From Magnetococcales bacterium HA3dbin3 (GTDB lineage Bacteria > Pseudomonadota > Magnetococcia > Magnetococcales > DC0425bin3), in NCBI GenBank assembly GCA_002753495.1, contig PEAJ01000003.1, forward strand, positions 1 to 40,624: DNA of 40,624 bases, written 5' to 3'. A program made the position numbers and the translations under genes. The first letter of the stretch is position 1. Each line of letters begins with the position of its first letter. The notes under the pieces were generated by a model. It worked only from the letters and a program-made list of their open reading frames with translations. It ran no database searches and was not told the DNA's origin. Of the stretch, positions 5,144-40,624 are shown piece after piece.

Positions 5144-7253
<2,110 letters not shown>

Positions 7254-18652: not shown

Positions 18653-20329
18653 ATGGAGAACAAAAGGAAAAAGGGTCTTGACATCACGTTGCGCTGGGGG
18701 CTGGGGAGCGCCTTTGTTGGTCTGTCCCTGCTGACTCTGTTTCTCTTCGGGTTGGTCACCCACCTCATGGTTCATACCTCGGCCAAGGAGGAGTTTCGGA
18801 ATTGTCTTTTTGAGGCAACCGGCATTGCCGCTCTGGTGGTTGATGCTCGTCTGCATAGCTCCATTCACGGTCCCACCGACGAATCCAGCGAGGCCTATCT
18901 GGCCATTCAGCGTCAATTGCGGCGCGTGCGCAACGTTTCCGGTGAAATCCAGTCCATTCATACCCTACGCAAGGAGCCGAGTGGTCGGATCATCTTTGCT
19001 GTCGATGCAACGCAGGGTGCTGATCGCACCAACCATGTCGGTCATCCGCGTGAGAAGGTCACGCCGGCGATGCTTGCGGCGTTCGAGAAACCCTATCGTG
19101 TTACAGTCGAGCAGGAGTTTCACACCGACAAGGCGGGGACGACCCTCTCCAGCTACGCCCCGATCTTCAATACCGATGGCTCCCTGGAGGCGGTCCTCGC
19201 CATTGTCATCAACGCCCAAAAAATCGCTGGTTACGAGAGCGACTACATCTACACCCTTTGCACGATCATCTTCGTTTCGACCCTCGTCGCGATGGTTCTG
19301 GGATTTCTCTTCTCGCGCCGTATCAGCAAACCTTTGCTGGCCCTGGAGCAGGACATGGCGCGGATCCAGCGGTTTGATCTCGATCACAAACCCGAGGTTG
19401 ACTCCCGTGTGCGCGAGATTGTCATGATGAAGTCGACGGTCGACAACATGAAGAACAGTCTGCGCTCCTTCAAGAAATATGTTCCCGCTGATTTGGTGGC
19501 GGAGTTGATTCTGTTGCGCAAGGAGGCGGTTCTGGGGGCGGAAAAGCGGGAGATGACCATCTTTTTTTCCGATATTGCCGGCTTCACTACGATATCCGAG
19601 CAGGTCTCTCCGGAGGTGTTGTCCGAGCGTCTGGGGGTCTATTTCGAGGGGATGACCAGCACCATCTTGCGGCAGCGTGGGACAGTGGATAAGTTCATTG
19701 GCGATGCGATCATGGCCTTCTGGGGGGCGCCGGGATTGCTCGCGACCCATGCCGAAGCGGGGTGTCGCGCGGCCCTGGCCTGTCAGCGTCTGCTTGCCGA
19801 ACAGGCGCCGGCATGGAGCCAGGCTGGATTTCCCGCGTTTCCCACGCGCATGGGACTGTGCAGTGGCGAGGTCATTGTTGGCAACATGGGATACAAGGAT
19901 CGTCTGAGTTACACGGTCATCGGCGATACCGTCAACCTCGCCAGCAGGCTGGAGAGTTTGAATAAATATTACGGTACGCGCATCGTGATTGGTGAAAGCA
20001 CGCAGGCACAGGTGGATGCCAGCATGGTGACCCGGTTTCTGGATGTGGTGGCCGTCAAGGGCAAGAGCCAGGGCGTACGTATCTACGAACTGGTGGAGGA
20101 GCGGGACCGAGTGACGCCCGAGGAGTTGCAATTTGTCAATCGCTACAATGACGGTATGCGTCTTTATCTCGATCGTCAGTGGCAACAGGCGGCGGAGCTC
20201 TTTTCGGCTTGTCTTGGGGAGCGGCCTCAGGACCAGCCTGCGGGCATGTTGCTCACGCGCTGTCGAGAGCACGCCATTCAATCGCCCCCCGCTGACTGGT
20301 GTGGCGTGACAATCATGAAGGAGAAGTGA
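18653..20329 (+). CDS. Membrane class III adenylate/guanylate cyclase with periplasmic sensor region and HAMP linker
   Basis: N-terminal TM, second TM SDYIYTLCTIIFVSTLVAMVLGFLFSRRISKPLLALE; cyclase motifs MTIFFSDIAGFTTISEQ, DKFIGDAIMAFWGAP, YTVIGDTVNLASRLE. Confidence 0.88.
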   Translation: MENKRKKGLDITLRWGLGSAFVGLSLLTLFLFGLVTHLMVHTSAKEEFRNCLFEATGIAALVVDARLHSSIHGPTDESSEAYLAIQRQLRRVRNVSGEIQSIHTLRKEPSGRIIFAVDATQGADRTNHVGHPREKVTPAMLAAFEKPYRVTVEQEFHTDKAGTTLSSYAPIFNTDGSLEAVLAIVINAQKIAGYESDYIYTLCTIIFVSTLVAMVLGFLFSRRISKPLLALEQDMARIQRFDLDHKPEVDSRVREIVMMKSTVDNMKNSLRSFKKYVPADLVAELILLRKEAVLGAEKREMTIFFSDIAGFTTISEQVSPEVLSERLGVYFEGMTSTILRQRGTVDKFIGDAIMAFWGAPGLLATHAEAGCRAALACQRLLAEQAPAWSQAGFPAFPTRMGLCSGEVIVGNMGYKDRLSYTVIGDTVNLASRLESLNKYYGTRIVIGESTQAQVDASMVTRFLDVVAVKGKSQGVRIYELVEERDRVTPEELQFVNRYNDGMRLYLDRQWQQAAELFSACLGERPQDQPAGMLLTRCREHAIQSPPADWCGVTIMKEK

Positions 20330-22383: not shown

Positions 22384-22977
22384 ATGGGCGTGTGGTGTGG
22401 TGGTACGAGGTGTTATGCCGCCCTGGCCTGTCAGCGTCTGCTTGCCGAACAGGCACCGGCGTGGAGCCAAGCTAGATTTCCCGCGTTTCCCACACACATG
22501 GGGCTGTGCAGTGGCGAGGTCATTGTTGGCAACATGGGGTACAAGGATTGCCTGAGTTACACGGTCATCGGCGATACCGTCAACCTTGCCAGCAGGTTGG
22601 AAAGTTTGAACAAGTACTATGGTACGCGCATCGTGATTGGTGAAAGCACGCAGGCACAGGTGGATGCCAGCATGGTGACCCGGTTTCTGGATGTGGTGGC
22701 CGTCAAGGGGAAGAGTCAGGGCGTGCGTATCTACGAGCTGGTGGAGGAACGGGGTCGGGTGACAGCCGAGGCGTTGCAATTTGTCGAGCGCTACAATGAC
22801 GGTATGCGTTTTTATCTTGACCGTCAGTGGCAGCGGGCGGCAGGGCTTTTTTCGGCCTGTCTTGAGGAGCGGCCCCAGGATCGGCCTGCGGACATGTTGC
22901 TTGTCCGTTGTCGGGAGTACGAAGTTCAATCGCCTCCCACGGACTGGCGTGGTGTGACGATCATGAAGGAGAAGTGA
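22384..22977 (+). pseudogene. N-terminally truncated duplicate of the cyclase (C-terminal half only)
   Basis: ACQRLLAEQAPAWSQARFPAFPTHMGLCSGEVIVGNMGYKDCLSYTVIGDTVNLASRLESLNKYYGTRI matches 18653..20329 but lacks sensor, TM, HAMP and both metal-binding motif regions. Confidence 0.8.
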
Positions 22978-27071: not shown

Positions 27072-27147
27072 GGGCCGTTAGCTCAGTCGGTAGAGCAACA
27101 GACTTTTAATCTGTGGGTCGTTGGTTCGATTCCAACACGGCTCACCA
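27072..27147 (+). tRNA. tRNA-Lys (anticodon UUU), CCA encoded
   Basis: gggccgttagctcagtcggtagagcaacagacttttaatctgtgggtcgttggttcgattccaacacggctcacca folds as a cloverleaf with CUUUUAA anticodon loop. Confidence 0.95.
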
Positions 27148-29372: not shown

Positions 29373-29433
29373 CCTACCTTCCCCGCTCTCGCCACCTCCT
29401 CCTAAGAAAATGCATTGTTCTGTTTTTTTCTGT

Positions 29434-29526
29434 TGCATAGCCTACGCAGTATGCTATGATGGATTCATCGATCGGGGCAGACGGCCCCACCCGCTCCTCG
29501 GGGATATCAGGGGATGGAGATGGAAG
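29434..29526 (+). promoter_or_regulatory. Promoter plus structured 5' leader, copy 1
   Basis: TTGCAT-16 bp-TATGAT with TGC extended -10, then GGGGC-agacg-GCCCC hairpin, CCCGCTCCTCGGGG, GGGGATGGAGATG ribosome-binding region. Confidence 0.6.
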
Positions 29527-29919
29527 ATGCAAGAAAAAACACATCATTTCGTTCAGCTCGCCATTGATCGCGCAGCCCGCCTTTTAGAGGAAAGGCTTGT
29601 GCAGCTAAGGGCGGTTAAGGGCCCCGGCTGCCCCTTCCCCCAATTCGATCCACGCGTGGTTGAATGGCACCGGGAAATCAAAAAGAAGTGCTGTGCGGAG
29701 TCTGAGAGGCATGTACCTGCCATAACAGCAGCCGCTTTTGCCGCTGCCGGCGCTATGGCAGTGGCAGAAACTGATGCCGCAATAGTGACTGTGGCGGAAA
29801 AAGCCGCCCAGTCTGTTGTCCATAAGATATGCCCGTTCCCGACTGCGTTGGAGCTATCAGATGCATACGTAGGGCTCTCACCCCTCTATCCTCCCGAGGA
29901 AAACGACTGCGCAGGGTGA
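29527..29919 (+). CDS. Orphan protein in phage accessory cassette
   Basis: MQEKTHHFVQLAIDRAARLLEERLVQ...; preceded by promoter/leader copy 1. Confidence 0.55.
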   Translation: MQEKTHHFVQLAIDRAARLLEERLVQLRAVKGPGCPFPQFDPRVVEWHREIKKKCCAESERHVPAITAAAFAAAGAMAVAETDAAIVTVAEKAAQSVVHKICPFPTALELSDAYVGLSPLYPPEENDCAG

Positions 29920-30000
29920 CTAAGACGGCAAGCCGGTGGTGGGAGATAGCCCTCCCCCACCACCATCCTTCATATCCTCCAAAAAATGAGGTTGAGAAAA

Positions 30001-30551
30001 TGTTGAAATCTTTCGATAAATTTTCACAGGATTCCATTCTACTGGTCTCGGCGGAGGCTCGTGCCGTTCTCTCCGACGCGGCCCGGGAGGGACGGACGGC
30101 TGCGGTGATAGAGGATGTCCGTGATGCCTATGACATACTCCGTCCCCTCGCTGTTGTCTCCGCCGCACGCCTCCTGATCGGGGCGCGCGGGCGGATCGAC
30201 GAGGGGGAGCTCCGCCGACTCCTCGGCGCCCCCGGGACAGTCGTTGATCACCTATCCGTCGTAGAAATTTATGGGTCAACCCCTTATGATAATATTTTCT
30301 TATCTGACTTCTTCGACGCGACGACCCTCGATAACACCGTGAGACATGCCCTCACGGTGTCAATTTTTTGCGATCTCCGTGCGTGCCCTGTTTGCGTTGG
30401 GGGGGGCTGCCCCTCATGTGCGCAGATCGGGGACAGCATCGTCCAGGTGCGCCCTGGACGGCCATCGTGCTTTGGCAAGAGCCCCCAAGAGCGGTTTGAG
30501 GAGGAGATCAGGGAGTGGCTGTCCCTGCCTCCGTCAGAGACGAGGATCTGA
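30001..30551 (+). CDS. Orphan protein with C-terminal Cys cluster (possible Zn ribbon)
   Basis: MLKSFDKFSQDSILLVSAEARAVLSD...CDLRACPVCVGGGCPSC; GAGG-rich sequence upstream. Confidence 0.5.
30334..30369 (+). terminator. Terminator-like hairpin inside an ORF
   Basis: ACACCGTGAG-acatgcc-CTCACGGTGT perfect 10-bp stem then CAATTTTTT. Confidence 0.5.
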
Positions 30552-30563
30552 GAGATAAACACA

Positions 30564-30599
30564 CCCTGGCGGGCCATCCTCTGCCAGGGCATCTTTTTT
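30564..30599 (+). terminator. Intrinsic terminator
   Basis: CCCTGGC-12 nt-GCCAGGG then CATCTTTTTT, just after the stop at 30551. Confidence 0.7.
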
Positions 30600-30606
30600 G
30601 GAGTAT

Positions 30607-31098
30607 ATGCAAGGGCGTAACTATATGATAAAGCTGGTCTATCCCGACTCAGAGCACGCACTTAGGTTTGATCCCGTGCGGATCGCTGTCCGCTGGCCGC
30701 ACGGGAAAGTTATTGACGGGGAAGAGTTTTCGTCTATCGCCGCGGCTGGGGGCGTCATAAAGACCGACCAGAGAATCGGAGTTCTACGCGCGTTCCAGGT
30801 CGAGGACGGCAGCCTTTTGGCAGATTCCATTGTTTCTGTTGAGGATGTTCGTGGAAAGCGCTTGCGCGATCTGCTGTCGCTCATGTCTCTCACACGCGAC
30901 CAGGCGGCGGCGCTGGTGATGGTCTCGCCATCGACGCTGGATGCGTGGATCTCACAGACTGGGGGGGCGGCCAAAAGGTCTGCCCCCGCGTGGGCCCTGC
31001 TGCTCCTCTCTCTCCTCTACGAGGCACGCGCCGCCGGAGAGGTAGGAGAGGCGATCGAGCGTAGAGCGCGCGCACGGGTGGAGTCCAAAAAAATTTAG
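30607..31098 (+). CDS. Putative regulator with C-terminal helix-turn-helix-like segment
   Basis: LTRDQAAALVMVSPSTLDAWISQTGGAAKRSAPAWALLLLSLLYEA resembles an HTH; start could also be 30625. Confidence 0.5.
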   Translation: MQGRNYMIKLVYPDSEHALRFDPVRIAVRWPHGKVIDGEEFSSIAAAGGVIKTDQRIGVLRAFQVEDGSLLADSIVSVEDVRGKRLRDLLSLMSLTRDQAAALVMVSPSTLDAWISQTGGAAKRSAPAWALLLLSLLYEARAAGEVGEAIERRARARVESKKI

Positions 31099-31130
31099 GA
31101 TGGATCGCTCCTTGCCGTGCCGTTTTTTCC

Positions 31131-31226
31131 TTGTATAGACCACCACGCGTGCTATAATGAAATCATCGATCGGGGCACATCGCCCCGCCCGCTCCTCGGG
31201 GGGAAATCAGGGGATGGAGATGAAAA
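31131..31226 (+). promoter_or_regulatory. Promoter plus structured 5' leader, copy 2
   Basis: TTGTAT-16 bp-TATAAT with TGC extended -10, GGGGC-acatc-GCCCC hairpin, CCCGCTCCTCGGGG, GGGGATGGAGATG. Confidence 0.65.
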
Positions 31227-31967
31227 ATGAATAAAACCAATTTTTTGGTCCCGCTGCCATCCCTCACAGGCCTTGAAGCGGCTGAGGCTGAGCCTGTCCG
31301 CGACCGTCAGCTTGGCATAGCCCGCAGGATCGGCGAGGCGTTCGCTTTATCCGAGGACGGCGCCAGCCGTGAGGAGATCAGCTCGGGACTAGAAGGCCAG
31401 GAGCCAGTTTTTTTCGGTCTCGTGCTCGGATACGCTTCCCTGTCAGAGTACGACAGGGTGGTAGCTCATCTCGCCGGCATCACGTCGGCGCGCTGGTGGG
31501 TGACGACGGGGGCGAAGATTTTTCCGGAGCTGATCTCCAGCGCTATCAGACACATCCGTCTCGGTGAGCTGCCGGAGCTGGAAGGGACTGAAAAGCAAGC
31601 GGTCTGGGCGGGGGAGATCCGCGCCCAGCATCTCGATCGCGCAGAGCGTATGCTGCGCATCGCGCGTATCGTACAAAGTGAGACGATCTTCCTCAGTATG
31701 TCCGAACAGGCACAGGCGGAGGCATATACTGAGATCAAAAAAATTGCGGCGGGGACTTCTCTCCTGGACCAGGGCGCCCATGGAGGGGATTTTGTCACCC
31801 TCATGCGTCTCGCGGGCGACTCTGGTCGCTACGAGGCGTTTTACACCTGGCTGCGCGGCCGGACTGCATCTGGATGGTGGCTGGAGCGCAAGGTGGCGGG
31901 AATGGATTTGATTATGAAAGATTTTTTACGGGTGAGTTCAGCTGCTCAGAGCAGCTTCCGCTCCTAG
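31227..31967 (+). CDS. Orphan 246 aa protein in phage accessory cassette
   Basis: MNKTNFLVPLPSLTGLEAAEAEPVRDRQLGIARRIGEAF...; preceded by leader copy 2. Confidence 0.55.
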   Translation: MNKTNFLVPLPSLTGLEAAEAEPVRDRQLGIARRIGEAFALSEDGASREEISSGLEGQEPVFFGLVLGYASLSEYDRVVAHLAGITSARWWVTTGAKIFPELISSAIRHIRLGELPELEGTEKQAVWAGEIRAQHLDRAERMLRIARIVQSETIFLSMSEQAQAEAYTEIKKIAAGTSLLDQGAHGGDFVTLMRLAGDSGRYEAFYTWLRGRTASGWWLERKVAGMDLIMKDFLRVSSAAQSSFRS

Positions 31968-39824: not shown

Positions 39825-40624
39825 GGCAGCCCCCGCAGTGTCTCTTTGATGGAGTCGACCATGCCCTTGATCTGCTCGCGCGGCGCAAGCACCGATCCGA
39901 CACCTTTACCATTGATCACAATCTCATGCCGTACGACGTTTGCCTCTAATGCGCTTGGCGTGCCGCCCGATCCGCCGGCAGCGAAGGCCGGAGCAGGGAT
40001 GGCGGGGATGGTCAGGCGTGGGATTTCCGCCGTGAAATCATGGCCGGCATTCAGCCACGCCTGCATCCGGTCGGGCGGTGGCGGTGTAAACCCGGGCGGC
40101 CACGCGCCTTGCGCGTGGCTAGATTGAGATTGCCATGAGCTTAGGCGGTTAACAGCGGAGCCTCTCCAGAAATCATCGAAACCGCCCATCTGTTCGATAT
40201 ATGCTTCGGGACTTGATGGAACTTCGAGCTTTTCACCCTGCTTAGCTAACGAAAGAAGCCACTTTTCTCGCCATCCAGTCGTATGGCCAGGATGATGTTT
40301 TGCCGTGTTTTCCTCGTCTACAAGAGTCCCTAGATGCCGATTTTCTGGTTGCTCGGGCGCAGAGCCAAGATACTGCTTTTCCAGCACCCTGCCCTCCTTG
40401 TCCATAAGGGCTATCCAGGATCGCTCTTTTGGCTGTCCGGGCGCAGAGCCAAGATACTGCTTTTCCAGCATCCTGCCATTTTTATCCACAGATGCTATCC
40501 AGGATCGCTCTTTTGGCTGTCCGGGCGCAGAGCCAAGATACTGCTTTTCCAGCATCCTGCCCTCCTTGTCCATAAGGGCTATCCAGGATCGCTCTTTTGC
40601 TCCCCCGTCGCCAGCGCGAGGCTT
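39821..40624 (-). CDS. C-terminal part of a large phage protein, probably the tail tape measure; truncated by window edge
   Basis: ...VRHEIVINGKGVGSVLAPREQIKGMVDSIKETLRGLP*; reading frame stays open to the window end; first gene of the tail operon. Confidence 0.5.
   Translation of the reverse strand, partial: KPRAGDGGAKERSWIALMDKEGRMLEKQYLGSAPGQPKERSWIASVDKNGRMLEKQYLGSAPGQPKERSWIALMDKEGRVLEKQYLGSAPEQPENRHLGTLVDEENTAKHHPGHTTGWREKWLLSLAKQGEKLEVPSSPEAYIEQMGGFDDFWRGSAVNRLSSWQSQSSHAQGAWPPGFTPPPPDRMQAWLNAGHDFTAEIPRLTIPAIPAPAFAAGGSGGTPSALEANVVRHEIVINGKGVGSVLAPREQIKGMVDSIKETLRGLP
40310..40606 (-). repeat. 84-bp (28-aa) tandem repeats within tape-measure-like gene
   Basis: tatccaggatcgctctttt recurs at 40412, 40496 and 40580; encodes MDKEGRMLEKQYLGSAPGQPKERSWIAS with a diverged unit downstream. 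Confidence 0.85.

Follow-up and report, generated by a model that had tools for sequence, protein, structure and literature searches.

The two promoter-leader modules described here are members of a previously uncatalogued RNA family that phages place ahead of many unrelated small genes. That the family is a conserved structured RNA is virtually certain, and its tie to anti-defence is highly probable. The modules are likely to represent the structured 5' untranslated region cassette of Aca-type anti-defence operons, combining repression at a DNA operator with an RNA element. They lie in a 40,624-nt stretch of the Magnetococcales bacterium HA3dbin3 (contig PEAJ01000003.1), referred to below as the window.

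The modules occupy positions 29433 to 29529 and 31131 to 31229 of the forward strand, each 5' of an unrelated gene, and a repeat search recovered the pair independently as blocks of 79 nt (77% identity; 29425 to 29503 and 31123 to 31201) and 37 nt (84% identity; 29500 to 29536 and 31200 to 31236). All elements of the twin modules listed in the preliminary description, i.e., an extended −10 box with TGC, a 16-bp spacer, a hairpin and shared sequences, were read in both. Promoter 1 has TTGCAT (29433 to 29438), a 16-nt spacer and TATGAT (29455 to 29460), and it contains the imperfect inverted repeat CATAGC (29436 to 29441)/GCTATG (29453 to 29458), a possible operator at the position occupied by the operators of relatives. 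Promoter 2 (31131 to 31158) has TTGTAT (31131 to 31136), a 16-nt spacer and TATAAT (31153 to 31158), with the imperfect, operator-like inverted repeat TATAG...CTATA. TGC precedes the −10 box in both promoters.

Leader 1 has a hairpin, P1 (GGGGC-AGACG-GCCCC; 29474 to 29488), near the 5' end of the transcript. A second hairpin, P2a (29490 to 29503), is formed by CCCG, the loop CTCCT, C, a bulged G (G29500) and GGG, and position X of its loop (T29495) pairs with X' (A29514) in the downstream GGGGA-T-GGAG (29510 to 29519), of which GGAG (29516 to 29519) is the ribosome site. Leader 2 has the same arrangement: P1 (GGGGC-ACATC-GCCCC; 31172 to 31186, plus C31171-G31187), P2a (31188 to 31201; the same letters, with bulged G31198 and X at T31193) and GGGGA-T-GGAG (31210 to 31219; X' at A31214, ribosome site GGAG at 31216 to 31219). 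The sequence CCCGCTCCTCGGGG is identical in both leaders and has no other site without mismatch in the window; the leaders differ by a 2-nt insertion 3' of the second hairpin. As originally described, AGGGGATGGAG stands ahead of both open reading frames, but the start codons are at 29527 and 31227, each 7 nt 3' of GGAG, and "ATGGAGATG" in the leader is therefore the ribosome site and not the start. No copies beyond these two were found in the source genome (2.9 Mb, 77% complete). Elsewhere, the window contains a 300-nt repeat of 93% identity (19758 to 20057 and 22406 to 22705), an 84-nt triple tandem repeat near its right end (40338 to 40599) and, on the host flank of the prophage-like region, a tRNA-Lys gene (27072 to 27147) that lies upstream of moaC/moaA.

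Searches of the viral and genome collections with a pattern holding the exact letters of the T variant gave no match. A second pattern scan, of GTDB, returned a single true copy, in a Candidatus Kaiserbacteria MAG, whose P1 (TTTGC-aatctt-GCAAA) is wholly different in sequence and whose leader is otherwise identical. DNA searches of 100 relatives located two modules in genome G004, 1.38 kb apart, beside tail genes and preceding proteins unrelated to those of the window, and a small covariance model added copies within the order in G015, G032 (two) and G038 and a third in G004. The leader is present in four other genomes of the order, two of which have twin copies; those of G032 sit in a prophage with an integrase and a CI-like repressor. 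IMG/VR was scanned with a pattern that allowed G in the loop (the G variant) and left X' free, and the 90 matches obtained, against 3 for the reversed pattern, exclude chance. About 80 of the 90 had the full architecture, and a covariance model built from the nonviral copies alone gave the viral copies good scores. After cleaning, 81 distinct leaders stood ahead of about 69 unrelated, mostly small proteins. The preliminary description had made its proposal depend on the existence of further copies, and these were found in the order, in the Kaiserbacteria MAG and on roughly 80 viral contigs.

No relevant match to the Rfam 15 covariance models was obtained for the window (E up to 5) or for seven viral loci (E up to 1). 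In blastn searches, the consensus leader had no match in cultured phages and chance matches only in plasmids. Several other candidate leaders were likewise rejected as chance: DNA matches in G037 and G068, with G037:C88; loci L100, L110, L111, L117, L138, L159 and L184 to L188; and pattern matches in G157, G311 and G384. The Kaiserbacteria MAG has two leaders among cellular genes (L037, 6307 to 6363; L091, 7755 to 7808), the former near genes for SOD, ComEC and RecJ; no Aca-type gene was seen adjoining them, and a covariance-model search of 196 more genomes of that MAG's order gave no additional copy.

The second module of G004 is a recent duplication comprising promoter, operator, leader and the first 12 to 13 codons (L022, 13474 to 13638 and 14850 to 15015), and its junction to a different gene is direct evidence of cassette swapping. 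Three genomes also encode, close to their leaders, a 320-aa protein of phrog_6160 with the motif W.P.WC..PMA (L022, 15899 to 16864; L066, 7776 to 8852; L068, 1362 to 2333), which occurs in Leptospira, Lactobacillus and Erwinia phages as well. At L101, a segment of 42 nt (6618 to 6659) shares 97.6% identity with part of Halomonas phage phiHAP-1 and may be the telomere site of a linear plasmid-prophage.

Family members share a layout in which a promoter of the sigma-70 type, which often contains a palindromic operator, is followed by P1, P2 and GGGGX'UGGAG, P2 being a covarying hairpin with the loop CXCCU and a bulged G. P1 lies just upstream of the constant part and was detected (score of at least 4) in 62 of the 81 distinct leaders (77%), compared with 21% of shuffles; among these 62 there were 48 different 5' arms, i.e., the sequence is free and the pairing is kept. 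The "conserved stem, variable loop" of the preliminary description thus holds for the two window copies but not for the family, in which the constant parts are the loop of the second hairpin and the ribosome site. CGCCTCGG and CAGGGG.TGGAG were fixed by the viral search pattern and are not usable as evidence of conservation; X', p2 to p4, p3' and p4', P1 and everything outside were free in that search.

The free positions provide the evidence for pairing. P2a reads p4-p3-p2-G, the loop C-X-C-C-U, C, the bulged G and p2'-p3'-p4'. Position p3 was complementary in all 81 leaders, through C:G, G:C, A:U and U:A pairs, and p4 in 35 of 81, compared with 17 expected; neither value was reached in 5,000 shuffles, and p4=C accompanies p4'=G (Fisher test, 1e-7). 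Two leaders, L069 (p2 G:C) and L090 (U:G, G:C, U:A, C:G), require the bulged G in order to fit P2a. Leaders that deviate at p3 still fit P2a, whereas an extended pairing with the invariant UGG would be disrupted in them, which argues that P2a is real. X and X' were never mismatched (G:C in 70 leaders, U:A in 5, G:U in 4 and A:U in 2), and it follows that the loop pairs with the ribosome-site region in at least one state, whether alongside P2a, in an H-type pseudoknot, or as its competitor. Pseudoknot-free nearest-neighbor folding preferred a long hairpin that pairs the Shine-Dalgarno sequence, with the loop on GGGGX', in 52 of 81 leaders and P2a in 1 of 81, and GGAG was on average 37% unpaired; single leaders folded no better than shuffles. 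The start codon follows UGGAG by 5 to 9 nt and is ATG in 84 of 86 cases.

Ahead of the viral leaders are boxes resembling TTGACA and TATAAT, and the spacer between them contains palindromes such as TACACGCA-T-TGCGTGTA at L154 and CACGAACA-A-TGTTCGTG at L169. Palindromes with arms of at least 7 nt were present in 30% of promoters and in 2% of shuffles. The hypothesis of P1 as an RNA version of its own operator was rejected (4.27 shared nt versus 4.09 when shuffled; 50 of 500 shuffles reached the observed value). P1 is thus unlike the operator of its own phage, and the reading of both by one HTH protein under the same rule is unsupported.

An Aca10-type HTH gene lies downstream of 43 of 70 viral leaders, on the same strand and at a median distance of 346 nt, and for most leaders lacking one the contig ends within about 1 kb. 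These viral HTH proteins match PDB entry 7XI5 (E = 5.8e-15), and in the PDB sequence search they match the 65-aa Aca10, not Aca2. PDB entry 7XI5 is the crystal structure of Aca10, which represses acrIC7-acrIC6-aca10 and has ATACGCTCATTGAGCGTAT as its minimal site (PMC9410881); the operator core at L168, TACGCTCATTGAGCGTA, is identical to the core of that published site. The HTH gene that follows the leader-driven gene often begins with NHPNRS, and a similar N terminus is found both on Aca10-type HTHs and on otherwise unrelated leader-region proteins (L109, L112, L133, L151, L174 and L022, 14139 to 14864). The exact 21-bp Aca10 operator also occurs with an Aca10-type HTH gene on Klebsiella conjugative/IncF plasmids (L198, 2370 to 3192; L205), and no RNA leader was found in these plasmid operons. 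The plasmid HTH gene sits behind a gene for a protein of ∼148 aa, a candidate anti-defence gene.

In the window, operon 1 consists of gene A (130 aa; 29527 to 29919) and gene B (183 aa; 30000 to 30551), both without a family match, and gene C (163 aa; 30607 to 31098), which has a C-terminal HTH and is a candidate Aca-type regulator of both leaders. Gene D (246 aa; 31227 to 31967), on the same, forward strand, belongs to phrog_16123 (5.3e-6). It shares this family with a gene of G032, and a member at L067 (6038 to 6493; 7.1e-17) is driven by a leader in a prophage of another family. Gene C matches a repressor PHROG (0.0038). With a clean profile of viral Aca10-type HTHs, L068 ranked first (i-E of 0.038) and gene C second, with a weak i-E of 0.18, the best reversed decoy being at 3.3; when the four HTHs of the order (window, G038, G032 and G015) were taken together and aligned against the viral HTHs by hhalign, the value was 96%. 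Gene C is larger than Aca10 and has an additional N-terminal region, its similarity is weak and its single-sequence structure model (pLDDT of 38) was too poor for a structure search. Family searches matched no window protein to a known anti-defence family, and PADLOC gave no match among the proteins of the order. The HTH protein singled out in the preliminary description is the natural candidate regulator. We lean towards Aca-type control of the window leaders, with gene C as the putative regulator; gene C would presumably bind the window operators, and genes A, B and D are putative anti-defence genes.

The 86 leader-driven proteins fall into 69 clusters and are mostly of 56 to 150 aa. One, at L169, is AcrIF2-like (PDB 5yhr, 2.6e-4), and the HTH gene comes after it; the candidate was chosen by eye among 86, and this value is somewhat flattered. 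The pooled set of 86 also yielded a match to AcrIC5 (3.2e-5), an ArdC N-terminal domain (1.5e-6) and an anti-restriction PHROG. Other families reached were DUF932 (two), DUF2958 (L115), DUF6948 (two) and DUF7666, while most of the proteins had no family match (about 60 clusters without a known family). Three genomes of the order have CRISPR arrays with spacers against the leader, namely, CCAACCGGCACCTCGCGGCAATCAGGGGTGGAGA in G016 (C158, L089), TCGGCGGAATCAGGGGCTGGAGCACGGAGATGG in G018 (C122, L084) and CTCCAATCGCGCCTCGGATGACCAGGGGCTGGA in G021 (C110, L196). These arrays have 44 to 164 repeats of the sequence GTTTCAATCC[GA]CGCCCCCG...GCGAC, which appears type I-C-like. The spacers indicate that leader-carrying elements invade the order and that its CRISPR systems store the leader.

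We propose that these operons work as follows. A sigma-70 promoter would carry an operator over its core, seen as clear palindromes in viral relatives and as imperfect repeats in the window. Transcription would start just upstream of P1, such that the mRNA opens with a hairpin of free sequence, the role of which is probably 5'-end protection or that of a spacer. The XCC of the P2a loop would pair with GGX' beside the ribosome site, as a pseudoknot or a competing hairpin, making ribosome access switchable. Anti-defence protein would be produced in a strong burst on entry and then shut off, with an Aca-type repressor acting at the DNA operator and the RNA element on existing transcripts. For the window, this would place genes A, B and C, the last encoding the HTH repressor, under leader 1 and gene D under leader 2. 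Translational control by the leader RNA is somewhat favored, given the covarying pairing of loop and ribosome site and the Aca2 precedent; that the Aca protein itself is the RNA ligand is a tentative suggestion. Repression by the HTH protein at the DNA level is in line with what is established for Aca proteins (PMC9410906, PMC9410881). The preliminary description's selected RNA-plus-operator element, coregulating unrelated and probably anti-defence phage genes, is supported by these results; as to timing, analogy with Aca biology points to expression that peaks early and is then repressed, not to constant moron-like expression (PMC8434428, PMC9410906).

Regulation might instead reside in the DNA operator alone, with the leader as a constitutive expression cassette composed of a protective 5' hairpin and an optimized ribosome site. 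The pairing of P1 is kept and its sequence is not, as expected of a 5' protector, a promoter with an operator is usually present and the genes behind the leader are very diverse. However, a strong ribosome site requires neither X:X' covariation nor a bulged G nor a covarying P2a, and the predicted ensemble, in which the loop pairs with the ribosome-site region in about two-thirds of leaders, would lower translation; furthermore, the plasmid operons that share the operator and HTH type but lack the leader presumably work. We consider this explanation unlikely.

It is also rather improbable that the constant element is a riboswitch or sensor of a host factor (a metabolite or ribosomal protein) that adjusts the timing of expression to the state of the host, independently of the Aca protein. 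The near invariance of the constant part across phages with differing operators, and presumably differing HTH specificities, would fit such a sensor, as would the leader in the Kaiserbacteria MAG with no Aca-type gene nearby, but one HTH type is linked in 43 of 70 contigs, the aptamer would be very small and no Rfam relative was found. An exclusively DNA-level function, as operators or recombination sites for the swapping of moron cassettes, is in keeping with the duplication in G004, where the module moved as a cassette with its promoter and first codons. Pairing that survives sequence change, and an element that is always on one strand, downstream of the promoter and at a fixed spacing ahead of the start codon, make that explanation very hard to sustain. 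The interpretation as a doubly controlled Aca-type cassette accommodates features read directly from sequence, i.e., the family, the pairing, where the start codons lie and the association with HTH genes of the Aca10 type.

The closest functional parallel is the Aca2 protein of phage ZF40, which reportedly controls acrIF8 by binding both DNA and RNA (Birkholz et al., Nature 2024). In that acr operon, a promoter operator is said to be complemented by translational repression through stem-loops of the 5' untranslated region at the ribosome site. The leaders resemble this system in having, for the first gene, predicted stem-loops at its ribosome site (P1, P2a, X:X' and fixed start spacing). They differ in their regulators, which in the PDB sequence search match Aca10 and not an Aca2 family protein with its C-terminal dimerization domain, in a 5' hairpin that does not resemble the operator, in their constant sequence and in the pairing of loop to ribosome site. 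The acrIC7-acrIC6-aca10 operon of Pseudomonas citronellolis likewise has an Aca10-type HTH gene downstream and a palindromic operator over a sigma-70 promoter, but the published account is of DNA binding only (PMC9410881).

Other shared elements ahead of unrelated genes are more distant. The SAS/ESAS elements of Cluster K mycobacteriophages comprise a conserved sequence, GGGATAGGAGCCC, at the start codons of unrelated genes, with an upstream inverted repeat and several copies per phage (PMC3203893). The constant sequence here is GGGGX'UGGAG and its pairing covaries, whereas ESAS repeats do not, according to the authors, behave as RNA stems, and no tie between SAS genes and an Aca gene is described (PMC3203893). 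Early-promoter motifs of archaeal viruses also mark diverse anti-defence genes and are usable as bait, but these are DNA promoter motifs, in contrast to a structured RNA leader in bacterial phages (PMC11065993). The STAXI motif is, similarly, a pseudoknot-like RNA near antirestriction genes of mobile elements, but it is a tandem pseudoknot in which UUCG loops are frequent (PMC2864571), and no Rfam model matches the leaders.

The leader could tag anti-defence genes together with their shared switch. Most anti-defence genes are short, fast-evolving and unrecognizable by sequence, and a conserved leader that outlasts protein change would provide a protein-independent search handle for them. More speculatively, the pseudoknot between loop and ribosome site may serve phage anti-defence genes in general as a translational switch, read across differing operators by Aca-type HTHs or a common host factor, in which case a single RNA signature would tag a large part of the anti-defence repertoire. 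The proposed mechanism would carry RNA-level anti-CRISPR control from one Aca family to another and would make testable how phages join a fast burst of expression with the shut-off of existing mRNA.
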